A stretch of DNA of 49,951 bases from Candidatus Iainarchaeum sp. (GTDB taxonomy: Archaea > B1Sed10-29 > WALL01): the NCBI GenBank assembly GCA_021162685.1, contig JAGGYF010000015.1, positions 1-49,951 on the forward strand, given 5' to 3'. Positions 393-46,179 of this stretch are shown one piece after another (position 1 is the first letter of the stretch; each line of letters opens with the position of its first letter). The position numbers and the translations under genes were made by a program. The notes beneath the pieces were generated by a model. That model searched no databases. It had not been told where the DNA came from and worked only from the letters and a program-made list of their open reading frames with translations.

Positions 393-1397
393 TTATCCTA
401 TAGGTGATTTTTCAAAATCCCATGGTTCATACACAGGCCATTCCAAAACCTTCCAAGCCTTTACACTATATTTCTTCGCTATTTTTCTGGCTGTTTCAAC
501 ATCTGTTTCAATCCGTTTTTTCTTTCTGTTATAGTAAAGCCCCTCCTTTTTCGCTATCTCTTTATGCCCGTCTATCACTCCTTTTACAATCAACCCATAT
601 CTATTGACCTTTTCCCAGGGTTTCTTTATTACATTTGCCCTTCTTTTCAATCTCCTTGTCAGTTGGACACCATGTTTAACGAAAACAGAACAGAAGTGCG
701 CCTTTACGCCTCTCTTTTCAGCATATCTCAAAACTTTCAATGCAAGCTTCTTTGAACCAGTTACAGCATTTGTATATTCATCATGTTTCATTCCATGTCT
801 TTTCATTCGTTTCCAATTGGAGTCTGAGAATTCAAGTTCATTCAAATTCAGAAAGATATCCTTTTCTGCGCAAAAGTCAACAACCCTCTTAAGTCGCTTC
901 CAATCACCTGGAATAACAGGGATCTCAATACCAACATCCATGTTGGTTTTCAATGCTGGCTCTAACCATTCAAAATGTTCAAACACATGAAATCTTATCT
1001 CATCAAGCCCTGCTTGTTCAAGTTTTTCAACATTTTCTTCTGTTGCCAATTTTCCATATGTATATAGATGTATATGAAAGCGTTTTCCAAATGTACTCTT
1101 CAATAGTTCTATATAACGACACACTCTGTCCACAACCAATAGGGGTTCGCCGCCAGTTATTCCTGCGCCCAGTGCGTTCATCTCCTTTGCCTCTTTTATG
1201 ATGTCTCTATCGTTTCGTACAGGCCTTTCATTTGCATATACTACATCTTTTCCTGCTCTTTCCAATGATATAGGGCAGTACCAGCATTTTTCAGTACATC
1301 TACCTGTAACAAAGAGAACAAGTTTTGCTCCTCTATGACAAAGGATACATCCCTTTGGGAATCCATCTGTGAGTATTGCATGGTCTCTCTCGCGCAT
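393..1397 (-). CDS. Radical SAM domain protein
   Basis: CxxxCxxC motif in LFVTGRCTEKCWYCPISLERAG, followed by GAGITGGEPLL (GGE motif). Confidence 0.85.
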   Translation of the reverse strand: MRERDHAILTDGFPKGCILCHRGAKLVLFVTGRCTEKCWYCPISLERAGKDVVYANERPVRNDRDIIKEAKEMNALGAGITGGEPLLVVDRVCRYIELLKSTFGKRFHIHLYTYGKLATEENVEKLEQAGLDEIRFHVFEHFEWLEPALKTNMDVGIEIPVIPGDWKRLKRVVDFCAEKDIFLNLNELEFSDSNWKRMKRHGMKHDEYTNAVTGSKKLALKVLRYAEKRGVKAHFCSVFVKHGVQLTRRLKRRANVIKKPWEKVNRYGLIVKGVIDGHKEIAKKEGLYYNRKKKRIETDVETARKIAKKYSVKAWKVLEWPVYEPWDFEKSPIG

Positions 1398-1430
1398 ACC
1401 TTTATTTAAAACATCTGTTATTAATTAACC

Positions 1431-2342
1431 ATGCGTGTCCGTAAGACAAGGAGAAACTGGGTTCTGTTTGCTTTGGTCATTGTGCTACTCTTCATCCTCC
1501 TATTTACTGGCTTCTTTCTAGCAGCATTACTTGGCATGGACTTTGAGGGGGGCAAAGTAGGAGTTGTGCCTATAAAAGGCCCGATAGTAAGCGAAACCTC
1601 TGAGAATGTATGGGGAACCCAAGTAGGTGCAAGGGACATCATAAAGCTTATAGAAGCAGCAGATAATGATGAAAGCGTTTCTGTTATCCTTCTTGATATA
1701 AACAGCGGCGGTGGCTCAATAGTTGCGAGCAAGGAGATAATGCGCGCAGTAAAAAGGGCAAAGAAGCCAGTTGTTGCCTACATCGGAGATGCTGGCGCAT
1801 CTGGTGCATATTACATCGCAAGCGCTGCAGACATAATTGTTGCTGATGAGGATTCTATTACAGGAAGTATAGGTGTTCTTGCGATGATTCCTAATTACAA
1901 AGAGCTTATGCAGAAGATAGGCCTGAATATGACTATATTGAAGGAAGGGAAGAACAAAGTGATGGGAAATCCATACGAGGAGATGACACCTGAACAGAGA
2001 CAGATATTCCAAAATATCCTAAAACAAGCATATGAAGAGTTTAAATCAACAGTGATTGAGAACAGAAGGGGAAAGATAACAGAAGAGGCATTTGATAGTA
2101 TTGCAGATGGAAGAATACTAAACGGAAGGCAGGCAAAAGAGTGTGGACTGATTGACTACACAGGTTCAAGGGACCTTGCGCTCCGAAAAGCAGCAGGGTT
2201 AGGCAACATAGAAGGAAGACCAAAAGAGAAACTATTTGAGAAGAAGATAAGTCCGCTTTCATCAATACTTGGTGAGGCAGGATATGCATTTGGAAAAGGC
2301 ATGTTAAATGCAATACAGCAAGACGTGGTGGTGAGGGCATGA
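1431..2342 (+). CDS. sppA: Signal peptide peptidase SppA (S49 family)
   Basis: N-terminal TM segment; DINSGGGSIVASKEI and GDAGASGAYYIASAADIIVADEDSITGSIGVL are S49 signature regions. Confidence 0.9.
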   Translation: MRVRKTRRNWVLFALVIVLLFILLFTGFFLAALLGMDFEGGKVGVVPIKGPIVSETSENVWGTQVGARDIIKLIEAADNDESVSVILLDINSGGGSIVASKEIMRAVKRAKKPVVAYIGDAGASGAYYIASAADIIVADEDSITGSIGVLAMIPNYKELMQKIGLNMTILKEGKNKVMGNPYEEMTPEQRQIFQNILKQAYEEFKSTVIENRRGKITEEAFDSIADGRILNGRQAKECGLIDYTGSRDLALRKAAGLGNIEGRPKEKLFEKKISPLSSILGEAGYAFGKGMLNAIQQDVVVRA

Positions 2343-2911
2343 AACAAAAGGTAAAAAACATATTCAAAGCATTTTTTACTGGCTTCCTAACAGTTTCTAT
2401 CCTCCTCCTTCTAATGCACATTGTCGCACCAACATTAGGTATAAGATATATAACAACATTCACATCCACGTTTAATCTAAGTGTACCTCAATCTGGTAGA
2501 GTTCTCTATTTTTCACTAATGACACCAATCCTTGTTGGTGTGTTGTTTGCAATTGTTCAGTTTTTTGAGGATTACGAAGGACATTTATCTAGACAATACA
2601 GAAAGGTCGTGAAAACAAAAGAAACAGAGGAATTTATCGCAATTGTTCAGAATACATTATGGGGAACAGCAATTGGATTCTTCACAACGATGGTACTCTT
2701 CATATACCTGATGGGAAAACAGGGAACGTATACCATCCCCTATATTATAACAGTTACATCATCTGGGGGATTTGTTTCTGGTTCAACAACAATCATTTCT
2801 ATTTGCACTATTCTTGGTTTATTATATGGGTTATGGCAAGCAGTTAGGATAAGCAAACATAAGGGGAAGGGCAGGCATGTTAGAAAAACTCGTGTTACCA
2901 AAAAGACTTGA
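2339..2911 (+). CDS. Multi-pass membrane protein of unknown function
   Basis: ATGA overlap with sppA; several hydrophobic segments; basic C-terminus. Confidence 0.6.
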   Translation: MKQKVKNIFKAFFTGFLTVSILLLLMHIVAPTLGIRYITTFTSTFNLSVPQSGRVLYFSLMTPILVGVLFAIVQFFEDYEGHLSRQYRKVVKTKETEEFIAIVQNTLWGTAIGFFTTMVLFIYLMGKQGTYTIPYIITVTSSGGFVSGSTTIISICTILGLLYGLWQAVRISKHKGKGRHVRKTRVTKKT

Positions 2912-3054: not shown

Positions 3055-4090
3055 TGTTTTATTAGATGAGGTACACAATATAATCCCTATGTGGTCTCGC
3101 GAGGAGCTTCAGTTTTGCGTAAAATATCCTTACTCTAGTAGAACAAAGGAGATAGTGCGATGGTTAAATTTTGACCTAGAATCTCTTGACCCACAGGTAC
3201 TTGAAAGAGCATTGCAGAGGGCAAAAGAAGGCATAGAGATAGGCGTGATAAATCCAGAGGTTGCATCACGCTCACAGAAGATATTACTTGTAGAAATTCT
3301 CTCATACCCTGTTGCTAAAATCATTGTTTCATTGACAAAGGACAACTATCTTATAAATAGATATGCACATGCAGAGGCGAATACAGCAAGAAGATTTCTA
3401 TACAGAGATGACAACGGTGTAGTAGATGGGATTGCAACAGATGTTGGAATAAACATGCACAACAGAAGTGTGTTCTTTGTTGATTACCTAAATAACATTC
3501 CACTACAAGAACAATTCAAACTTGTAAATGCACCATTGGATAAAGGCAGGGTCACACTAACAAGGGAATCTGAGATAGAGATGATTGCTGAGGTACTACG
3601 AAATAATATTATACGTGACTTAAAGAAGCGATATGATATTCCTTCTATTTATTCAACCTATGCAAAAGAACTTAAACAGGGAGTAAGTGCAGAGAAGGCA
3701 GTAATCAGCGATGAGGACCTTGGTCCAGTAGATGCATCTTTGTTCCCCCCCTGTATAAAGGCATTGCTCTCTCGCGCACGTGCAGGCGAAAACATGGCTC
3801 ACCAACCGAGATTTGTTTTGGCCACCTTCTTAACTTCTATTAACATGCCAATAGACCAAATCATTTCAGTTTTCAGGAACATGCCAAATTTCAATGAAAA
3901 GAAGACAAGATATTACATAGAATATTCTGCTGGAAAGCGAGGTTCTGGTGTAAAATACTCTCCTCCTGCATGTGAGAAAATGAAATACTATGGACTGTGC
4001 GTTAATCCAGATGCACTATGCTCAAAAGTAAAACATCCATTGAGCTATTACGCAGCCAAGAAAAAGGGTAAGAGATATGCAAAGCATTGA
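3008..4090 (+). CDS. priL: DNA primase large subunit PriL (true start may be the ATG near 3089)
   Basis: Fe-S domain cysteines PPCIKALL...PACEKMKYYGLCVNPDALCSKVKHPLSYY; directly upstream of priS. Confidence 0.92.
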   Translation: MKSYSQEYLGNPQPNSVLLDEVHNIIPMWSREELQFCVKYPYSSRTKEIVRWLNFDLESLDPQVLERALQRAKEGIEIGVINPEVASRSQKILLVEILSYPVAKIIVSLTKDNYLINRYAHAEANTARRFLYRDDNGVVDGIATDVGINMHNRSVFFVDYLNNIPLQEQFKLVNAPLDKGRVTLTRESEIEMIAEVLRNNIIRDLKKRYDIPSIYSTYAKELKQGVSAEKAVISDEDLGPVDASLFPPCIKALLSRARAGENMAHQPRFVLATFLTSINMPIDQIISVFRNMPNFNEKKTRYYIEYSAGKRGSGVKYSPPACEKMKYYGLCVNPDALCSKVKHPLSYYAAKKKGKRYAKH

Positions 4091-8267: not shown

Positions 8268-8426
8268 AAAGTTTCTCTACCAGTACTCTCCAATTCTTCC
8301 AAAAATCGTTTTGTAGTTCTAAATACCTCTTCCCTCTTCTTTTTCTCCAACAATCTCCTCTCAATTTCAGGCATGTGCTATACAAAGCATTATCTCTTTA
8401 AATAACCTCACGCAAAATTAGATAAT

Positions 8427-13196: not shown

Positions 13197-14462
13197 TTAC
13201 TCACTTCCTATTTTAATACTATTTGCAAGTTCCTCAATTTTCACCTTCCTCTCTTTTCCAGATACCATATCTCTAACAGTTACCTCTCCATCTTTCAGCT
13301 CTTTTGGCCCAACAATGACACAATACCTTATGCCTTTTGCATTCACATATTCAAACTGCTTTCTCAGATTTCTTTCCATAACGTCTGTTTCAACGCAGAA
13401 ACCAGAAGAGCGCAATTGCGTTGCAATTTTTAGCGCCTCCACCCTAACATCCTTATTCACGGGTGCGACATATACCTCAGTCTTTTTCAACTCTGGGAAC
13501 AAACCCTGTTCTTCCATCAATTGTATGACCCTTTCAACACCATATGATATGCCTGTTGCAGGCGTTTTTCTTCCACCATATAACTCAATCATGTTATCAT
13601 AACGGCCTCCACCCCCACAAGACCATTTACCTCCTGCTTTTATCTCAAAAACCAAGCCAGTATAATACTCCAGTCCCCTAACAATACTCAGGTCAAGTTC
13701 TAGATAATTATCAATCCCCATTGCTTTTGCTATTGAGAATAATTCATCAATCTCTTCTGCTCCTTCCTTTCCAATATCAAATGCTTTAAATTCCTCTTTT
13801 ATTCTGTTCTCCTCTATCAGTTCCATAAGCTTTTCAGCATTTGGTACCTCTCTTTGCTCAAGCTCTTCTTTTACACCATCCCAACCTATCTTATCCAATT
13901 TATCAATGCTTCTGAACGCGTCTAATGTTTTTTCTTTTGGTATGCCTGCAGCCAATATCAATGCCTCAAGAATCTTTTTGTTGTTTACTTTGATCTTGAA
14001 CTCCTTGAATCCAAGTGCTTTGAAAACATCTATACTGCATTGGATTACTTCAAAATCAGCCATAACAGATGGACTACCAAAGATATCTATATCTGCTTGG
14101 GTAAATTCTCTATACCTTCCAGCCTGTGGCCTATCATACCTCCAAACCTTATCAATACAATACCTTTTGAATGGCTTAACAAGTTCTGGTTTTGAAGCAA
14201 CAACCCTTGATGTTGGTACAGTTAGATCAAACCGTAATCCAAGTTCCCTTCCAGATTTGTCTTTAAAGTAATATATCTCATCCTTTATTGCCTCTCCTCC
14301 ACCTCCCTTCGCAGCCAGTAGTTCAAAACTCTCAACTGCGGGTGTTTCCATGGGTTCAAACCCATATCTCTGAAAAACCTCTTCCATTACAGAGAACACA
14401 TACTTTCGTTTGCGCATATCCTCTGGAAGAAAATCCCTCATACCACGAACAGTTTGATACAT
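13197..14462 (-). CDS. hisS: Histidyl-tRNA synthetase
   Basis: RGMRDFLPEDMRKRKYVF; RYDRPQAGRYREFTQADIDIFGS; VRGLEYYTGLVFEI; GGGGRYDNMIELYGG. Confidence 0.97.
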   Translation of the reverse strand: MYQTVRGMRDFLPEDMRKRKYVFSVMEEVFQRYGFEPMETPAVESFELLAAKGGGGEAIKDEIYYFKDKSGRELGLRFDLTVPTSRVVASKPELVKPFKRYCIDKVWRYDRPQAGRYREFTQADIDIFGSPSVMADFEVIQCSIDVFKALGFKEFKIKVNNKKILEALILAAGIPKEKTLDAFRSIDKLDKIGWDGVKEELEQREVPNAEKLMELIEENRIKEEFKAFDIGKEGAEEIDELFSIAKAMGIDNYLELDLSIVRGLEYYTGLVFEIKAGGKWSCGGGGRYDNMIELYGGRKTPATGISYGVERVIQLMEEQGLFPELKKTEVYVAPVNKDVRVEALKIATQLRSSGFCVETDVMERNLRKQFEYVNAKGIRYCVIVGPKELKDGEVTVRDMVSGKERKVKIEELANSIKIGSE

Positions 14463-14491
14463 GCTATCACCTTCTCACTCCATATTTTTAT

Positions 14492-16009
14492 TTATTTCAT
14501 TTTACCTATCTCACTTTCAACTGCTTTTAGTATCCTCCCTTGCTTTACGACCTTACTTAGCCTCTCTATGTCCTTATATAGTGGTCTATCCTCACCCAAA
14601 AATTTCACATATTTTCTGACCTCATCATATGCTGCTTTTACTCCTTTTCCAGGTTCGCCCCCTCTAAAATCTAATGCTTGGGCAGCTGCCAATAGCTCAA
14701 TAGCAACAACAGCCGCTGTGTTATCAATAATCTTTTTCGTTTTCAATGCAGTGTTCATCCCCATGGACACAAAATCCTCCTGGTCAGCAGCTGTTGGTAT
14801 ACTTCCAATTGCAGCAGGTGTGGAGAGCACTCTATTCTCATTTACTAGGAACGCAGCCGTGTACTGGGGAATCATTATACCAGAGTACATGCCTGCTCCC
14901 TCTATAAGAAATGCTGGTAATCCTTGGTTCAAATTTGGGTTTATGAGCCTGTTTAACCTTCTTTCTGATATCACGGATACTGTGGTTATGCCTATTCCAA
15001 GTAATTCCAAAGGCAATGCTATTGGAGTGCCCTGGAAGTTTGCGCCAGTAAGATACACCCCATCTGGGAAGAACAATGGATTGTCTGCGCCACCATTCAA
15101 CTCTATCTCAACCTGTTTCTTCACAAATGCGATGATATCTTTTACAGTACCCACTACCTGAGGGGTGCTCCTTATAGAATATGCATCCTGTACTCTCTCC
15201 TGCTTCACCAATATCTCAGAACCCTCTATTAACCTTCGTATGTTTTCTGCTGATTTTATCCCACCTGGAAACCCCCTTGCCTTTAGTATCCTCTCATCAA
15301 ACGCCATCGTAACAGCTTTCAATGCCTCAAAACTCATAGCTGCTGCAATCTCAGAGGTTTTTGTTATCACATCAGCATCGTATATCTCTAATGCAGCCAT
15401 ACCTGTAATCAGTTGTGAGCCGTTTATTGCAGCCAAACCATCTCTTATCTCAAACCTTATTGGTTCAATACCCGCTTTCCTCAGCGCGTCTTTACCCTCC
15501 ATTCGCTCTCCATTGTAAAATGCTTCCCCCTCCCCTATCAACACCAACATAGCTTGTGCCAGAGGCGCTAGATCACCGCATGCTCCAACACTTGCAGGAT
15601 ACATTACTGGTGTTATACCTCTGTTCATTATCTCAATCATCTTTTCAACAACCTCAGTGCGTATCCCAGATATCCCTTTACATAGGGTATTTATTCGTGC
15701 AGTAATGGCAGCTCTTACATATTCCTCTTCCACAGGTTCTCCATAACCTGCTGCGTGACTATAAACCAAATACTTTTGGAATTCCCTTGCCTGCTGTTCT
15801 GTTAATATGACATCAGCTAGCTCTCCTATCCCCGTTGTTGTACCATACACTGCTACCTTTTTCTCAAACAGTTTCTCAACCGTTTCTCTACTTCTTTTTA
15901 TCCTCTCTTTGGTACTCTCATCTATCTCAATCCTCTCTTTCCATCTTGCAATTCTCACAATCTTTTCTACTGTTAATGTTTTTCCATCAAGTTTAATCAT
16001 CTTTCTCAC
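14492..16009 (-). CDS. hutH: MIO-family aromatic amino acid ammonia-lyase, histidine ammonia-lyase-like, with Ala-Cys-Gly at the cofactor site
   Basis: VYGTTTGIGELAD, KYLVYSHAAGYGEP, PASVGACGDLAPLAQAML, INGSQLITGMAALE, ADQEDFVSMGMNTALKT. Confidence 0.85.
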   Translation of the reverse strand: MRKMIKLDGKTLTVEKIVRIARWKERIEIDESTKERIKRSRETVEKLFEKKVAVYGTTTGIGELADVILTEQQAREFQKYLVYSHAAGYGEPVEEEYVRAAITARINTLCKGISGIRTEVVEKMIEIMNRGITPVMYPASVGACGDLAPLAQAMLVLIGEGEAFYNGERMEGKDALRKAGIEPIRFEIRDGLAAINGSQLITGMAALEIYDADVITKTSEIAAAMSFEALKAVTMAFDERILKARGFPGGIKSAENIRRLIEGSEILVKQERVQDAYSIRSTPQVVGTVKDIIAFVKKQVEIELNGGADNPLFFPDGVYLTGANFQGTPIALPLELLGIGITTVSVISERRLNRLINPNLNQGLPAFLIEGAGMYSGIMIPQYTAAFLVNENRVLSTPAAIGSIPTAADQEDFVSMGMNTALKTKKIIDNTAAVVAIELLAAAQALDFRGGEPGKGVKAAYDEVRKYVKFLGEDRPLYKDIERLSKVVKQGRILKAVESEIGKMK

Positions 16010-16016
16010 CTCGTAT

Positions 16017-16034
16017 AGGGCCCAAGCCGGGATT
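16017..16034. repeat. 18-bp exact copy of the tRNA-His 3' terminus (other copy 16087-16104)
   Basis: agggcccaagccgggatt occurs at both positions, 70 bp apart. Confidence 0.95.
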
Positions 16035-16088
16035 CAGCGTCCCTAGGGGGGCACATCCCCTCTGGACTCTTTTCATCACCCTTTCCAG

Positions 16089-16161
16089 GGCCCAAGCCGG
16101 GATTTGAACCCGGGCCAGCAGATCCACAGTCTGCTATGCTGCCTACTACACCACTTGGGCC
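16089..16161 (-). tRNA. tRNA-His (anticodon GTG)
   Basis: Minus strand GGCCCAAGTGGTGTAGTAGGCAGCATAGCAGACTGTGGATCTGCTGGCCCGGGTTCAAATCCCGGCTTGGGCC. Anticodon stem GCAGA/TCTGC, T-arm CCGGGTTCAAATCCCGG, encoded G-1 opposite C73. Confidence 0.96.
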
Positions 16162-16169
16162 GCATTCTT

Positions 16170-16335
16170 TCACGTTTTTAGAAATAGGTTTTCCTTGCTC
16201 GTTGTTAGGTTTGGTTATCACTATCTGTTCCCCATCAAATACAGCAAGAACCTCGTCAGCAATGCCAAGCGATTCACGTGCTTCCAAGGGCAGAACTAGC
16301 CTAAACTTCTTATCTAGCTTTATTCTCCAAGCCTT
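16170..16335 (-). pseudogene. Second AbrB-like segment running into tRNA-His; probable gene fragment
   Basis: FTKAWRIKLDKKFRLVLPLEARESLGIADEVLAVFDGEQIVITKPNNEQGKPISKN. 30/31 nt identity with the first copy (16292-16322 vs 17166-17196). Confidence 0.55.
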
Positions 16336-17029
16336 TGTGAAGTAACTCCCCCCTATAAGACCGCGTTACTGCGGCTTCTGCAAGTACTTGCAATGAATCA
16401 ATTAGTGTTATGTCGCAATCCCCTTGTCTCAATACGATAGGAAGTTCCGTACACCCCAAAATAATTGCCTCAATCTTCTTATCTTTAAGGTCTTCAATTA
16501 CTTGAAGTAATCTCTCTTTTTTCTCTCTTTTTTTGCCTGCTATAATATTCATTATGCATTCAGTGACTATCTCTTGTTGTTTTCTATTTGGCACTATGCA
16601 TTGTATCCCCCTTTTTTCAAGGGCATTTTTGTACGCACCCATCTTAATAGTAGTTTCCGTTGCGAGAAGACCAACCCTTCTAAATCCTCTTTTTTCACAA
16701 GCTTTTGCTGTCTCCTCAATGATACTCATTATGGAGATCTCACTTTCCAACCTCTTCGCAAAGATTGATGCTGTATTGCATGGAATACAAACGAAGTCCG
16801 CACCATAGCTTTTAAGGGACACGCATCCACCAGCTAAAAACCTAAGTAAGACATCCTCGTTTCCCTTTTCTGAGATAACATCAACAGTAGGTAAATTTAA
16901 GATTATGATAGGTGGAAAATCCTCATTCTTTTTTGCGCCGAACTTCGTTTGGCAGATAGATATCATCCTTCTGTAAAACTCTCCTGTGGCTTCTGGCCCC
17001 ATTCCTCCCAATACTCCAATGGTTTCCAT
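16310..17029 (-). CDS. Aspartate/glutamate racemase family protein (in-frame ORF extends upstream to 17158 through an AbrB-like segment)
   Basis: METIGVLGGMGPEATGEFYRRM; CIPCNTAS; AIILGCTELPIVL (two catalytic Cys motifs). Confidence 0.9.
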   Translation of the reverse strand: METIGVLGGMGPEATGEFYRRMISICQTKFGAKKNEDFPPIIILNLPTVDVISEKGNEDVLLRFLAGGCVSLKSYGADFVCIPCNTASIFAKRLESEISIMSIIEETAKACEKRGFRRVGLLATETTIKMGAYKNALEKRGIQCIVPNRKQQEIVTECIMNIIAGKKREKKERLLQVIEDLKDKKIEAIILGCTELPIVLRQGDCDITLIDSLQVLAEAAVTRSYRGELLHKGLENKAR

Positions 17030-17200
17030 TTTACCTATCTCTTCACAGTTTCTAGAGATCAATGTTCCCTTTTCTCCATTGGGCTTGGATAGAACCAGTG
17101 AATTGCCAATAACCTTAATTTCAACCGAGTCAGTTACTCCGAGCTTTTCTCTTGCCATGAGGGGTAGAACTAGCCTAAACTTCTTGTCTAGCTTTACCCT
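17030..17200 (-). other. AbrB/SpoVT-like hairpin-domain coding segment, in frame with the racemase
   Basis: FTFRVKLDKKFRLVLPLMAREKLGVTDSVEIKVIGNSLVLSKPNGEKGTLISRN. I find no ATG/GTG/TTG before the ATG at 17158. Confidence 0.55.
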
Positions 17201-17345: not shown

Positions 17346-19682
17346 ATGAAACAAGCACTCCTCTGGAAACCATTGGAGAATAAAACAGTGCAGTGTAACC
17401 TCTGTAATAGGCACTGCATTATACCAGACGGAAAACGAGGGCTTTGCAGAGTAAGGGAAAACCGCGACGGCGTTTTGTATGCAATGACATATGCAAAGCC
17501 ATGCTCAATTGCAATTGATCCAATAGAGAAAAAACCATTGTTCCATTTCCTTCCTGGTACTTCTTCTCTATCAGTAGCAACAGTTGGTTGCAACTTTTTC
17601 TGTAAGCATTGTTTTGTACCAGAAACGTTCGTTATTACAAAAGATGGGGCACACACAATAGAGGAATTATTTAAAAAAGAAGACATCCACGTTCTAACAA
17701 AATCAAATGAGCTACATAGGGTCACAAAGCGATTTAAACATCCCTATTCTGGAAAAATCCTAAAAATAAAGGCAGCATTTCTACCTGAGGTCTTGTGTAC
17801 ACCTGACCACACGTTTTTTGCTACCACTGAGCCAAAGGATGGAATATCTGAGGTTGAAGCTAGAGACTTAACCAAACAACATTTCCTTGTTGTTCCAAGA
17901 AAACGCCCAACGAGTACAATGCCAATTATTGATGCCCGCACAATCCTCTCAAAATTTGAAACTAGAAGTTTCCAGGTAAAGAGAAAGAGACTAACTTCTC
18001 AGATTTTAGAGAAAATGATCAATCTAAAGGAAGAAGGGAAAACATCAAGAGAGATAGCATCTTGTTTGGGTTTCCATCCTACCTATATCAGGAAAATATT
18101 TTCCATTTTGAAACACCATGGAAAGGAAAGACTACTAACACGTACCTTTGAAACCAGTCTTGTTTTTGGTGAACGCATCCGATTTAAAAATGAGAAAGGT
18201 GTAGGCATACCTAAAGAAGTAAAACTTGACAAAGACCTAGCATATCTTTTCGGTATGTACTGTGCAGAAGGCAGCGTCTCCCGACATCCTTCCCGACCAA
18301 ATTCTTTGCTTCTTTGTTTCTCGTTTGGAAAGCATGAAAAGAAACTTGTAGACAAAACAAGTTTATTAATAGAAAAGGTATTTGGGATAAAACCCAAAAT
18401 CGGGATAACTAAAACCACATTGCAGGTTAGGGTGTCTAGCTCCTCGCTTGCTGCGTTCTTTGGCGTACTTTGTGGTATGAAGAGCCAAAATAAAAAAGTT
18501 CCAGAACCTCTCTTCTGCTCTCCAAAGCGCGTGATAGGCGCATTTTTGAAAGGATATTTTGATGGGGACGGCTGTTATAAGAAAAAATACGTTGATGCAG
18601 TTTCTGTTTCAAAAAAACTTATTATGGGGATATGCGAACTCCTTATCATGCAAGGCGTGCTACCTGGCTTTTACGAGCATATACCAAGAAAAGAAAGGCA
18701 AATCTGTGGAAGAAAGGTACATGTGAAACCAGAATACATAGTCAGATTTTCATCAGATTTTGATTTTGAAAAAGGCATCTGGAGAAGGAGGAGACATAAA
18801 AAATACCACTATAAAGAAACCGACAAATACTTTTTCGTTCCAATCAGAAAGATGTCGGAGCAACATTTTGAAGGATATGTATACAATTTAGAGGTAGAAA
18901 ACGACCCAACATACACTGCAAATTTTGTAGCGGTCCACAATTGCCAAAATTGGGGAATATCGCAAGCAAGTCCAGAAGATTTTTTGACAGAAGAAGTACT
19001 TCCAAAAGAGCTCGTTTCTATTGCTAAGAAAAACAACTGTAAAAGCATTGCCTATACATACACAGAGCCAACAATCTTTTTTGAGTACGCGTTTGATACA
19101 TCTAACCTAGCGCATGAAAGCAACATAAAGAATGTTTATGTAACTAATGGATACATGACTGAGGACATGTTAGATATGTACAAAAGCTTAGATGCGGCAA
19201 ATGTTGATATAAAAGGGGACGAGCGGTTCTATAAAGAGGTATGTGGAAACGTTGAGATGGAAAAAATCCTAGAGAATATAAAATACATGAGAAAAAAGGA
19301 CATCCATGTTGAGATAACAAACCTAATTATTCCAGGATACAATGATGACAAGGATTCTATAACACGCATAGCACAGTTCTGCAAGGATACTGATCCAGAC
19401 ATGCCTCTGCACTTCACCGCATTCTACCCAGCATATAAAATGTTAAACGTTCCTCCAACAAAGCGCGAGGTATTAGTAAAAGCCAGAGAAATGGCTCTAG
19501 ACATTGGCGTAAGATATGTATACTGCGGAAATACCTACCCTGGTGACCCCTATGAGAATACCTATTGTCCAAATTGCGGCCATCTGCTCATAAAGAGGCA
19601 TGGTTTTTCTGTTTTAAGTATAGATATGAATGGGGATAGGTGTCCAAGCTGTGGTATGAAAATACCTATTGTTCTTGAATAA
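17346..19682 (+). CDS. AmmeMemoRadiSam-type radical SAM enzyme interrupted by an intein
   Basis: Exteins: QCNLCNRHCIIPDGKRGLCRVREN...PLFHFLPGTSSLSVATVGCNFFCKH / CQNWGISQASPEDFLTEE...YTEPTIFFEYAFDTSNLAHE. ATG at 17346 preferred over 17274. Confidence 0.92.
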   Translation: MKQALLWKPLENKTVQCNLCNRHCIIPDGKRGLCRVRENRDGVLYAMTYAKPCSIAIDPIEKKPLFHFLPGTSSLSVATVGCNFFCKHCFVPETFVITKDGAHTIEELFKKEDIHVLTKSNELHRVTKRFKHPYSGKILKIKAAFLPEVLCTPDHTFFATTEPKDGISEVEARDLTKQHFLVVPRKRPTSTMPIIDARTILSKFETRSFQVKRKRLTSQILEKMINLKEEGKTSREIASCLGFHPTYIRKIFSILKHHGKERLLTRTFETSLVFGERIRFKNEKGVGIPKEVKLDKDLAYLFGMYCAEGSVSRHPSRPNSLLLCFSFGKHEKKLVDKTSLLIEKVFGIKPKIGITKTTLQVRVSSSSLAAFFGVLCGMKSQNKKVPEPLFCSPKRVIGAFLKGYFDGDGCYKKKYVDAVSVSKKLIMGICELLIMQGVLPGFYEHIPRKERQICGRKVHVKPEYIVRFSSDFDFEKGIWRRRRHKKYHYKETDKYFFVPIRKMSEQHFEGYVYNLEVENDPTYTANFVAVHNCQNWGISQASPEDFLTEEVLPKELVSIAKKNNCKSIAYTYTEPTIFFEYAFDTSNLAHESNIKNVYVTNGYMTEDMLDMYKSLDAANVDIKGDERFYKEVCGNVEMEKILENIKYMRKKDIHVEITNLIIPGYNDDKDSITRIAQFCKDTDPDMPLHFTAFYPAYKMLNVPPTKREVLVKAREMALDIGVRYVYCGNTYPGDPYENTYCPNCGHLLIKRHGFSVLSIDMNGDRCPSCGMKIPIVLE
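17610..18941 (+). other. Intein, 444 aa, with LAGLIDADG-type endonuclease and HTH-like segment
   Basis: Begins CFVPETFVITKDGAHTIEEL, block B-like EVLCTPDHTFFA, LAGLIDADG-like DLAYLFGMYCAEGS and AFLKGYFDGDGC, ends YTANFVAVHN followed by Cys+1. Confidence 0.95.
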
Positions 19683-41791: not shown

Positions 41792-42547
41792 ATGAAAAGA
41801 ACGAACCTTTTTTTGATCATAGGTGCCGTCATAGTATTTTTGTTTTTGATTGGAGCCATGTGGATCATGGCAACACCCAAAGAGGCACCAAGACCACCTC
41901 AAGTACCTGTATGTGGCAATGGCATAATTGAGCCAGGAGAGACGTATCAAACCTGCTGTTTGGATGCTGGATGTCCTGAGGGGTTGGAGTGCATAAACAA
42001 TACGTGTATTACAAGAGAGGCACCAAAAGAGGTTGAAAAAGCAGAAACCACTCTGATAGGGTTTGGCGACGCATTCCTAACAAACAACGTTAGACTGAAT
42101 GAACTGAAAGATATACTTGTTTTGCAAGTACCCAGATTTTCAAATGACTCCGCAGATATAGTTGTCTATTGGATGTTTGGTGAACCTTCACACCTCTCAG
42201 TTGAGCAGGGGAAGAGCATATCAGAGAGATACATACGCTTTACATATCTTGGTATGAGGAATAATGCAGCATTCTTGGTGTTGACAGAAGATACGAAGAT
42301 AGTCAATCTAAAGAAGACATTTGTCCTTCTGTTTGGTGAAGCAGCTAGAGTTAATGGAACAAACGACGTTATAGAGTTTGTTAGTGTTGATGGTGAACCA
42401 CTGGTTAGGACTGGTAAGATAGGAAATCCTGGGAAGTCAAGAAAGGTTGCTGTAGGAGAACCATTTTCATTTGACAATATGAACGCAGAGTTAACATACC
42501 TGAAAGGCGATAAGGCATACTTTGTGGTATGGAGGGGAGAAATATGA
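41792..42547 (+). CDS. Membrane-anchored CGNG-motif surface protein (paralogue 1)
   Basis: TM then CGNGIIEPGETYQTCCLDAGCPEGLECINNTC. TATA-like atatatttaaata at about 41758; in-frame ORF extends to 41753. Confidence 0.7.
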   Translation: MKRTNLFLIIGAVIVFLFLIGAMWIMATPKEAPRPPQVPVCGNGIIEPGETYQTCCLDAGCPEGLECINNTCITREAPKEVEKAETTLIGFGDAFLTNNVRLNELKDILVLQVPRFSNDSADIVVYWMFGEPSHLSVEQGKSISERYIRFTYLGMRNNAAFLVLTEDTKIVNLKKTFVLLFGEAARVNGTNDVIEFVSVDGEPLVRTGKIGNPGKSRKVAVGEPFSFDNMNAELTYLKGDKAYFVVWRGEI

Positions 42548-45500
42548 GAAGAATTTTCTTGTTGATATTGCTCCTTAGTTTGGTAAGCGCTGCTTGTTCT
42601 TCAACCCCTTGTTCAAGTAGAGGATACACAGCTTGTACTGCTAGTGAATATTGTTATTGCAGCAGCACAACAGACTGTGGTGCGACATGGTATGTAGCCA
42701 CATGTAAGTGGACTGGAGGGATTGCTACAGGAAGCTGTTCAGTAGATTCTAAGACATCAACACAATGTACCTCTGACCAGAGATGCAGCTATAGCAAAGG
42801 TGGATGCTATGATGCTCTTGCATGTTACGCAGACATAGATGTAGCAAGCATTTCAATCCAAGGCGTGAATGCAAACAACGAGATAAAGGAGGGCACAATA
42901 ACTGTAAAGGTTACAGTAAAAAACAATGGAGGAATTAGTGGAAGCAGTACAATCTATGTCTATGTACGTGACAACGATTTCACAAGTATTGATGATTTGA
43001 CAGGTGTAGCTGAATGTGAAATATCAACAGGAACAATATCTGCTGGCTCATCAGTAACAAAGTCATGTAATGTAAATATAGATGTTGCAACACCTCAAAC
43101 AAGATACTTTGCTGCAAAGGTATCTGGTGGTAGTGCAAGAGCAGCAGACCCGGCAGATAATTGGAAGAAAACAAATGCTAAGATTGTGGAATGTTTCTAT
43201 AATACCGATTGTAATGCCAATGAATACTGCTCTGATCAAGTAGCTCCAGGAGATTGTAGATCATGTCCGGGAGCAAAGTGTTGTACTCAGTGGGATACCT
43301 GGCCAACAAGGTACGATTTTTCTCAGCCGAGCGATTGCTGTGATACATGCATTGTATACTTTGATACGAGCAACCATTGCGCTATGTATGTTGAACAATG
43401 CGGATATGATTGTTATGAGTGTAACGCGTATCCATCATCAGATTACTGCAGAGACTGCGACCCCGGTTCTACAGAAAGCCGGTCCTGCCCTTCAGACTGT
43501 ACAGATGTTGGAGCATGTTCATGTGGAACACAATCAAGAACATGCGATTCAAGTGGCCAGTGGGGGGACTGGAGCACTTGTACTGGCTATGTTGGACCTT
43601 CTGATGAAGTCTGTAATGGTATAGATGATGATTGTGATGGAGACATAGACGAAGGTGTTAAGAACACATACTACGAAGACGCAGATGGAGATGGATATGG
43701 AAATGCATCAGTAACTACTCAGGCATGTACTGCACCATCTGGTTATGTCTCAAACAATTTAGATTGTAATGATAACAATGCAGACATCCACCCAGGAGCA
43801 ACCGAGATTTGTAACGGAGAAGATGACGACTGTGATAACTCAATTGATGAAGGATTATCCATAGCATGTTCTTCTGATTCTGATTGTGGAACAGATGGTT
43901 GTTACTTCAACAGATACAGGAATTATTTTTGTGTAAACGCAGGTAACTGTTCATCATCTTGTACACATGTAACAGAGTCAGATAATGATGATGACGGATA
44001 CTCCCCTTCATGTGGCGACTGTAATGACTCTGATGCAAATGTACATCCTGGTGTGACAGATACATGTGATGGGATAGACAATGACTGTGATAACTTAATA
44101 GATGAAGATGCAAATTGTCCTTCTTATGAACAAGATGGACCTTATTGTTATTATAATGGGTTCTGTAATGGAACATCTGGTTGTGCTTTTGCTTCAGAAC
44201 AGTTCATAGCAGCAGTATCTGCCTATTATGAGAGTAATGGTGTATGCTATTATGGTTGTACAAGAACATGTACTGAGAATGGTTGGGTCAGAGATGATAG
44301 TACCTGCTCATCTGAGACAATAGATGATGGAGACCCATGCACAACAGATACATGTACAGCTTCTGGTGTAACCCATACCAACTGGTGTGAGCCAGAGGTA
44401 TGTGACGATGATATAGATAATGATGGGGACGGCTTAATTGATTGTCAAGATGACGATTGCCCTGCACCTGATTGTCCGACATGTCAATATGCTGCATGTG
44501 ACCAAACTACATATGATTGGTATTGCGAGAATTCTCCAACTACAGAGGAATGTGGGACATCCAATTGCCCAGATGATTATTGCTATTGGTCTGGTGGGAA
44601 GTTATACTGGAAAAATTATCCAGAAACATGTACAAGATATTGCGATGGATCTGGTTCATGCGCAGGTTGTACATGTTCTGCCACAACCACACAATGTGTT
44701 GCATATGGCTGTTGTGTCACAGCATGTTCTGATTCAACAGGATGTTATACAAAAGCAGGAACATGCTCAGATGTGTGTTCTTCATCGTCCCTCACAACAG
44801 GTAGAACGTGTTCTGGTTGTGGGTCAAATGGAGCTACTGGGAGCTGTGGTGGAGGTTCAGTGAAATATTGTACTTCTTCTGATTATACAGAGTGTGAGCA
44901 GGCAAGTTGTGGTGGCAATACATACTATTGTACTGATGAATCTGGGACTTGGCAATGGCAAACAACCAGTAAAAAATGCACAAATGACTGTCCAACAGCT
45001 TCAGCCAGTTCGAACACAACATCCATAAAGGTTGGGGAATCTGTATCCTTTGATGGTTCAAATAGCAATGATCCAGATGGGGACACGTTAAGCTATGTAT
45101 GGGACTTTGGAGATGGCACAACATCAACAGAACAAAATCCAACACATACATTTAGTTCAAGCGGAAGCTATACAGTAACACTAACTGTAAGCGATGGCTT
45201 CTGTACAGATAATGATACACTGACAGTTCAGGTAGCTAGTCTAGTGCCCCCAACCGTATCAATTTCCGCAGATCCGACATCTGGATATGCTCCTCTTAGT
45301 GTAACATTTTCATGCACTGCAAGCGACTCAGACGGAACGATTGTAAGCTATCTATGGGACTTTGGTGATGGAGTAACAAGCACACATGATTGTAGTTCAC
45401 CTTTCACACACACCTATTCTAGCGAAGGCACATACACAGTAACACTAAAAGTTACAGATGATGACTTGCAAGAAGCAAGTGATACAGTTACCATAAACGC

Positions 45501-46179
45501 AACACAGTCATTTCCAGACTTTATCATATCATCTATAACAGTAGACAATTCAACCCCAGTGCTAGGACAGAACGTACAAGTGGATGTTACTGTTGAGAAT
45601 ATTGGACATGCAGATGTTGTTGGGGATGTAGGTATAGAATTGAGAGATGGAGGGACATACCACAAAACAATTACAGACCTCGCAGTTAATTCCTCTAAAC
45701 TCGTTTCATTTACGTGGAGCAGTGGAATACCAGGCAATTATACATTAGTTGCAACAGCTGACTACAACAGCGTTTACCAAGAAGAAAGCGAGACAAATAA
45801 CAATGCAACATTGCAAATAAGAGTAAATGCACCACCAACAGCAAACGCTGGCTCTGACATAAACGCATACGAAGGAGATACTGTCATATTAAACGGAACA
45901 TGTACAGATGACAATCAAATAGTATCATGCCAATGGTATGAAGGAGACACGTTATTGGGAGACAACCCCTACTCTTATGACACAACAGGAAAGGCTGGAA
46001 CACACACACTAACATTAAAAGCAACAGATAACGATGGACTAACAGACACAGATGATATGGTATTGACTGTTCAGTCATTACAATGTACGATAAATATGAA
46101 TCTCTCAGGTCCAGAAACACTTGCATTGTTTGAGCCAGGCTTATGGGATGCAAGTGGTACAGAGGTGGTGTGCCCATGA
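42544..46179 (+). CDS. Giant Cys-rich secreted protein with MopE-like Asp-rich repeats, two PKD domains and a CARDB-like domain
   Basis: Signal peptide MRRIFLLILLLSLVSAACSS; EVCNGIDDDCDGDIDEG, EICNGEDDDCDNSIDEG, DTCDGIDNDCDNLIDED; PKD YVWDFGDGTTSTEQNPTHTFSSSGSYTVTLTVSDG and YLWDFGDGVTSTHDC. Confidence 0.88.
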   Translation: MRRIFLLILLLSLVSAACSSTPCSSRGYTACTASEYCYCSSTTDCGATWYVATCKWTGGIATGSCSVDSKTSTQCTSDQRCSYSKGGCYDALACYADIDVASISIQGVNANNEIKEGTITVKVTVKNNGGISGSSTIYVYVRDNDFTSIDDLTGVAECEISTGTISAGSSVTKSCNVNIDVATPQTRYFAAKVSGGSARAADPADNWKKTNAKIVECFYNTDCNANEYCSDQVAPGDCRSCPGAKCCTQWDTWPTRYDFSQPSDCCDTCIVYFDTSNHCAMYVEQCGYDCYECNAYPSSDYCRDCDPGSTESRSCPSDCTDVGACSCGTQSRTCDSSGQWGDWSTCTGYVGPSDEVCNGIDDDCDGDIDEGVKNTYYEDADGDGYGNASVTTQACTAPSGYVSNNLDCNDNNADIHPGATEICNGEDDDCDNSIDEGLSIACSSDSDCGTDGCYFNRYRNYFCVNAGNCSSSCTHVTESDNDDDGYSPSCGDCNDSDANVHPGVTDTCDGIDNDCDNLIDEDANCPSYEQDGPYCYYNGFCNGTSGCAFASEQFIAAVSAYYESNGVCYYGCTRTCTENGWVRDDSTCSSETIDDGDPCTTDTCTASGVTHTNWCEPEVCDDDIDNDGDGLIDCQDDDCPAPDCPTCQYAACDQTTYDWYCENSPTTEECGTSNCPDDYCYWSGGKLYWKNYPETCTRYCDGSGSCAGCTCSATTTQCVAYGCCVTACSDSTGCYTKAGTCSDVCSSSSLTTGRTCSGCGSNGATGSCGGGSVKYCTSSDYTECEQASCGGNTYYCTDESGTWQWQTTSKKCTNDCPTASASSNTTSIKVGESVSFDGSNSNDPDGDTLSYVWDFGDGTTSTEQNPTHTFSSSGSYTVTLTVSDGFCTDNDTLTVQVASLVPPTVSISADPTSGYAPLSVTFSCTASDSDGTIVSYLWDFGDGVTSTHDCSSPFTHTYSSEGTYTVTLKVTDDDLQEASDTVTINATQSFPDFIISSITVDNSTPVLGQNVQVDVTVENIGHADVVGDVGIELRDGGTYHKTITDLAVNSSKLVSFTWSSGIPGNYTLVATADYNSVYQEESETNNNATLQIRVNAPPTANAGSDINAYEGDTVILNGTCTDDNQIVSCQWYEGDTLLGDNPYSYDTTGKAGTHTLTLKATDNDGLTDTDDMVLTVQSLQCTINMNLSGPETLALFEPGLWDASGTEVVCP

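Follow-up and report, generated by a model that had tools for sequence, protein, structure and literature searches.

The question raised by this locus is whether an intein placed at a ligand of an enzyme's iron-sulfur cluster acts as a regulatory switch or is an ordinary homing element in a conserved site. The window, by which we mean the whole 49,951-nucleotide stretch of Candidatus Iainarchaeum sp. that was analyzed, contains a radical SAM gene that is interrupted directly before the third cysteine of its CX3CX2C motif. The preliminary description had assigned the gene to the AmmeMemoRadiSam family, read the interruption as an intein, and suggested that iron, cluster binding, or redox state could sequester the intein's first cysteine and thereby gate splicing.

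The assignments of the host and of the intein were both borne out. The 802-residue product of the open reading frame scores 331.7 bits against the NCBIfam model TIGR04337 (cut-off 220) and matches Pfam Radical_SAM at 1.6e-20; its two ends make up the radical SAM enzyme (AmrS), and the intein lies between them. In the same product, Pfam detects Intein_splicing (1.8e-17) and LAGLIDADG_3 (PF14528, 8.4e-13), and the NCBIfam models intein_Nterm and intein_Cterm both exceed their cut-offs. The range of 17595-18950 first given for the intein does contain it, with a few flanking codons added to the exact span of 17610-18941. For amrS itself, the ATG at 17346 (MKQALLWKPL) is a likelier start than 17274. 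The Memo and AMMECR1 partner families are also encoded in the genome. The features are summarized in Table 1.

Table 1. Features of the intein-containing amrS gene, in window coordinates
Feature	Position	Strand	Basis
Intein-containing AmmeMemoRadiSam-system radical SAM enzyme (AmrS), open reading frame, 802 aa	17274..19682	+	TIGR04337, Radical_SAM
N-extein, 88 aa from the 17346 start, last residues VGCNFFCKH	17346..17609	+	sequence, homologues
Cluster cysteines 1 and 2, residues -7 to -1 (C-7 N F F C-3 K H-1)	17589..17609	+	sequence; PFL-AE motif alignment
Intein, 444 aa (Cys1 ... His443-Asn444)	17610..18941	+	Pfam, NCBIfam, alignments
Cys1 codon, predicted splicing nucleophile, at third-Cys position of the precursor	17610..17612	+	sequence
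Block B, C63-TPDH (TxxH)	17796..17810	+	alignments of three AmrS inteins
Helix-turn-helix-like segment between splicing and endonuclease regions (LEKMINLKEEGKTSREIASCLGFHPTYIRKIFSILKHHG)	18003..18122	+	sequence
LAGLIDADG motif 1 (LFGMYCAEGS)	18246..18275	+	LAGLIDADG_3; alignment
LAGLIDADG motif 2 (FLKGYFDGDG), acidic residues present	18543..18572	+	LAGLIDADG_3; alignment
Blocks F/G (EGYVYNLEVENDPTYTANFVAVHN), terminal HN	18870..18941	+	intein_Cterm, alignments
Cys+1 codon, third Cys of the mature CX3CX2C	18942..18944	+	sequence; PFL-AE alignment
C-extein (CQNWGISQ...), remaining radical SAM domain	18942..19679	+	Pfam, NCBIfam

Other genes in the window include a group just upstream of amrS on the opposite strand (13197-17158): a HisRS-like gene (13197-14462), an aromatic amino-acid lyase gene (14492-16009, 2.5e-165), and an Asp/Glu racemase-like gene (16310-17158). 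On the forward strand, 42529-46179 encodes a 1216-residue protein with PKD, MopE-like metal-binding, and CARDB repeats, which is probably a surface protein.

The junctions are unambiguous in the translation, which reads ...VATVGCNFFCKH/CFVPETFV...TANFVAVHN/CQNWGISQ... (slashes mark splice junctions). Without the intein, AmrS reads GCNFFCKHCQNW, and uninterrupted AmrS proteins are alike (GCNFRCKHCQNW and similar). The spliced segment GCNFFCKHCQN aligns to GCLMRCLYCHN, the CX3CX2C segment of pyruvate formate-lyase activating enzyme (PFL-AE; PDB 3c8f), and the motif CNFFCKHC matches both CLMRCLYC of PFL-AE and uninterrupted AmrS. The Cx3Cx2C reading of the spliced enzyme and the insertion before the third cysteine are therefore upheld, as is the observation that Cys1 occupies a 4Fe-4S ligand position, such that the precursor sequence (CNFFCKH/C1) retains CxxxCxxC. 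This recreation of the motif is automatic, however, because any intein that starts with cysteine and sits directly before a cysteine replaces that cysteine.

By its residues, the AmrS intein is a class-1 intein of the LAGLIDADG type. It starts with cysteine, where this class has Cys or Ser; its block B contains the class-1 TxxH as TPDH, which together with the preceding Cys63 is invariant in all three AmrS inteins described below; and it ends in Asn followed by Cys at +1 (VHN/C), where Cys, Ser, or Thr is expected. Both endonuclease motifs carry acidic residues (CAEGS, FDGDG). The block F Asp, which is usual and not strictly defining, is replaced by Asn (VYNLEV) in all three, a minority form that occurs in 8 of the 42 intein ends sampled by a simple motif search. 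The block F Asp is said to activate Cys1 by stabilizing its thiolate (review PMC10663303). Given this Asn, along with a penultimate intein residue that differs among the three (His, Cys, and Ser), AmrS splicing might be slow or altered. An AlphaFold model of the precursor (three sequences) had a mean pLDDT of 46 and a pTM of 0.40, too poor for reading a distance between Cys-3 and Cys1; within it, the helix-turn-helix-like segment is helical with a pLDDT of about 80.

Three archaeal genomes, belonging to two phyla, carry this intein at one and the same site. One copy, in another Diapherotrites genus of the same family (genome G003), sits at the same codon with 49% intein and 61% extein identity; the other, on a Bathyarchaeota contig, shares 35% and 44%, respectively, and its second LAGLIDADG motif is apparently degenerate (LSGNG). 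Since the inteins diverge slightly more than their exteins, nothing points to a very recent transfer. Another genome of the family (G002), like most other archaea in which AmrS matched over its full length, has the protein without an interruption, and no AmrS intein was found among the IMG/VR viral contigs. The distribution is sporadic.

If the third cysteine were special, inteins should favor it over the other two ligands, an expectation that we assessed in archaea and in viruses. A profile combining the radical SAM strand with intein block A, applied to 297 archaeal genomes, identified third-Cys inteins in eight of them, two in AmrS and six in the tetraether lipid synthase Tes, at 59-79 bits; all other matches reached 39.5 bits or less. 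In a scan of the Thermococcaceae phylum, 17 of 115 had third-Cys inteins, and all of those whose junctions were read were in Tes. Comparable profiles for the first and second cysteines found no insertions in the 297 archaeal genomes.

Viral contigs from IMG/VR were surveyed by pattern scans, with candidates checked against Pfam and NCBIfam. Third-Cys inteins were present in several radical SAM families (L164, L172/175, L206/208/210/217, L209, L212, L213/214/218, L215, and L221), with less complete examples in L150 and L149. L215 has no Pfam radical SAM match, yet matches the Rv2578c intein model. In L218, the intein-bearing radical SAM gene apparently occurs on both strands (about 3180-3223, reverse, and 8323-8366, forward), perhaps through an inverted duplication or an error of assembly. 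Tes and several viral families thus have inteins at the same third cysteine, an insertion site that the preliminary description had advised seeking in other radical SAM proteins.

The first, narrower viral control scans of IMG/VR for first- and second-Cys inteins came back empty; wider scans found both. Second-Cys inteins, with radical SAM hosts that are mostly B12-binding, were read at both junctions in L224, L233, L234, and L238 (hosts of L234 and L238 checked with Pfam) and at the N-terminal junction only in several more. First-Cys inteins were found in L248/L252, L249, L251, and L254, with the hosts of L249 and L251 checked. Within a single extein type of phages, CYANxFRASLYTxFFDN, the third cysteine is occupied by an intein in L209 and the first in L249. 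The viral scans demanded Cys1 or a VHN end together with particular flanking residues, and therefore yield no frequencies per cysteine. They do show that all three cysteines of CX3CX2C are intein targets, and the motif looks like a general target. We accordingly rejected the third cysteine as a special or selected site, as its occupation is no selected signature when viral inteins also sit at the second and first. Inteins usually prefer conserved active-site codons with Cys, Ser, or Thr at +1, and insertions at all three cysteines mean that this usual rule explains the placement.

The best explanation, and a very probable one, is that an ordinary homing intein has lodged in a conserved catalytic motif of amrS. 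We propose that a class-1 LAGLIDADG homing intein invaded amrS at the codon of the third cluster cysteine, a target that is conserved and supplies Cys at +1. Until the intein is excised, the precursor would lack a proper third ligand, and the catalytic cluster of AmrS could not assemble as it should. As its class-1 residues predict, the intein would excise itself, joining CKH to CQNWG and restoring the cluster motif. Until then, Cys1 would stand in the missing ligand's place, as the insertion rule forces. We infer the splicing, homing, and redox response of the AmrS intein from its residues and its likeness to other inteins.

The redox response has a precedent. In an intein of Pyrococcus abyssi described as residing in MoaA, a disulfide between Cys-3 and Cys1 blocks splicing until it is reduced (PMC3922620, PMC10663303). 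Because the AmrS spacing equals that of this redox-trapped intein, it is plausible, at slightly less than an even chance, that an oxidative C-3 to C1 disulfide would reversibly block AmrS splicing. Such a disulfide may be incidental or mildly useful, and it more likely follows from the choice of target site than explains it. The redox half of the originally suggested switch is reasonable in this light, while the layout does not point to Fe-S gating.

A stronger version would make the C-3/C1 disulfide the reason that the intein is retained: oxidation would keep an oxygen-labile enzyme inactive, and reduction would release it. The P. abyssi intein has been described in this way (PMC10663303), DnaBi1 is another documented redox-responsive intein (PMC6195587), the C-3/C1 spacing is the same in AmrS and in all Tes inteins that were read, and the AmrS site is kept across the three genomes and two phyla. 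Against this, most relatives have AmrS without the intein, and C-3 is conserved anyway for enzyme function. First-Cys inteins have no upstream motif cysteine as a partner and second-Cys inteins have theirs at -4; the existence of both means that the motif is invaded with or without an available trap at -3. We consider retention for this purpose unlikely.

It is considerably less likely still that the precursor holds a [4Fe-4S] cluster, or some other metal, through C-7, C-3, and Cys1, with Cys1 thereby tied up and splicing made dependent on iron or Fe-S status. The full CX3CX2C in the precursor is all that speaks for such binding, and a layout that arises automatically for any Cys1 intein at the third cysteine is uninformative. 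Because of this, and because first- and second-Cys inteins exist without a fully recreated motif, the coincidence does not point to an Fe-S switch. Furthermore, the remainder of the radical SAM barrel is located past the intein, and the nearest analogue, that of P. abyssi, is controlled by a disulfide and not by a cluster (PMC3922620, PMC10663303). The literature searched contained no study of Fe-S-gated protein splicing. Least probable of all is a decayed intein that has lost splicing and left AmrS inactive, as the block F Asn and variable penultimate residue might suggest, because the frame is open and both junctions are intact in three lineages whose inteins differ by 51-67%, the same Asn recurs among the sampled intein ends, and the partner families are present.

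A tree of the endonuclease region, built on about 150 columns and with many weakly supported inner nodes, places the AmrS inteins, at a support of 0.96, with other Diapherotrites inteins, including one in the IscU of G003, and apart from those of Tes; the position of the Bathyarchaeota AmrS intein is weak. This tree does not support a common origin of the AmrS and Tes inteins and suggests, as the better reading, that each entered the motif independently. The nearest other relatives in the scanned set are the inteins of L026 (the G003 IscU/NifU case), L018, and L029. In L026 (G003, contig C46, ORF 1030-2562, forward strand), an IscU/NifU-type Fe-S scaffold (PF01592, 2.6e-40) is split directly before its first scaffold cysteine (GNPV/CLLPETK...FCVHN/CGDVMYL); IscU was matched in 15 genomes of the phylum and is split by an intein only in this one. 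In the genome of the window itself, five or more other long frames (838-1706 aa; contigs C27, C41, C44, C25, and C6) include stretches that resemble the endonuclease region of the intein, a large number for a genome of 1.1 Mb.

The redox-trapped P. abyssi 'MoaA' intein was reportedly described by Callahan et al. in 2011. Genome G065 in our set is P. abyssi GE5, as its 3,444-base contig is 100% identical to plasmid NC_001773.1 over the 3,400 bases compared. In this genome, the frame of bona fide MoaA (TIGR02666) is continuous, and the one radical SAM intein found at a third cysteine interrupts tes (L044/L060); it is 455 residues long and has a cysteine at -3 (CNLNCWY/C...VSN/CFFYA). For these two reasons, the published intein is probably that of Tes. 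True MoaA was rejected as its host, given that the near-complete TIGR02666 copies listed for Thermococcaceae genomes, including P. abyssi, are all uninterrupted.

The finding of inteins at every cysteine of CX3CX2C is a more useful result than the AmrS case itself. AmrS, in two archaeal phyla, joins Tes as an apparently independent radical SAM family, so that unrelated pairs are now available for testing the published proposal of a Cys-3/Cys1 disulfide that guards an oxygen-labile radical SAM enzyme. The survey supplies controls in the form of natural first- and second-Cys inteins, in which this trap cannot form. A further suggestion is that tetraether lipid synthase, and not MoaA, is the host of the best-known natural redox-trap intein. 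Should the precursor bind a cluster or metal after all, splicing, and hence AmrS maturation, would report iron or redox status, and inteins that enter radical SAM motifs time and again would repeatedly give rise to Fe-S/redox control after translation.

Several known systems resemble the AmrS intein to different degrees. The mycobacterial SufB intein, which is in an Fe-S assembly protein and has reportedly been studied as a regulated element, differs in both host protein and site. The IscU/NifU intein of L026 likewise sits directly before an Fe-S cysteine, that of the scaffold (NPV/C...VHN/CGDV); it and the inteins of L018 and L029 are in other host proteins without CX3CX2C. Two curated NCBIfam models describe inteins in radical SAM proteins. 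NF045703, for intein-containing Tes of Thermococcaceae and others, shares the insertion point and differs in its extein and its separate intein lineage. NF038136, for an intein-containing Rv2578c-family protein, is matched by the viral third-Cys cases L212, L213, and L215; its extein is SplB/Rv2578c-like, and its intein is weakly related. The P. abyssi intein is the closest in geometry: as in AmrS, a class-1 intein beginning with Cys1 sits in a radical SAM host directly before the third cysteine, with identical Cys-3/Cys1 spacing (C-3 K H/C1 in AmrS). It differs in that its host belongs to another enzyme family, its lineage is not the one nearest to the AmrS intein in the tree of the endonuclease region, its block F keeps the Asp, and its penultimate residue is Ser; redox trapping is reported for it and is a prediction for the AmrS intein. 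Because inteins recur at all three motif cysteines and a redox-trapped example of the same geometry has been published, the AmrS intein joins a known kind.
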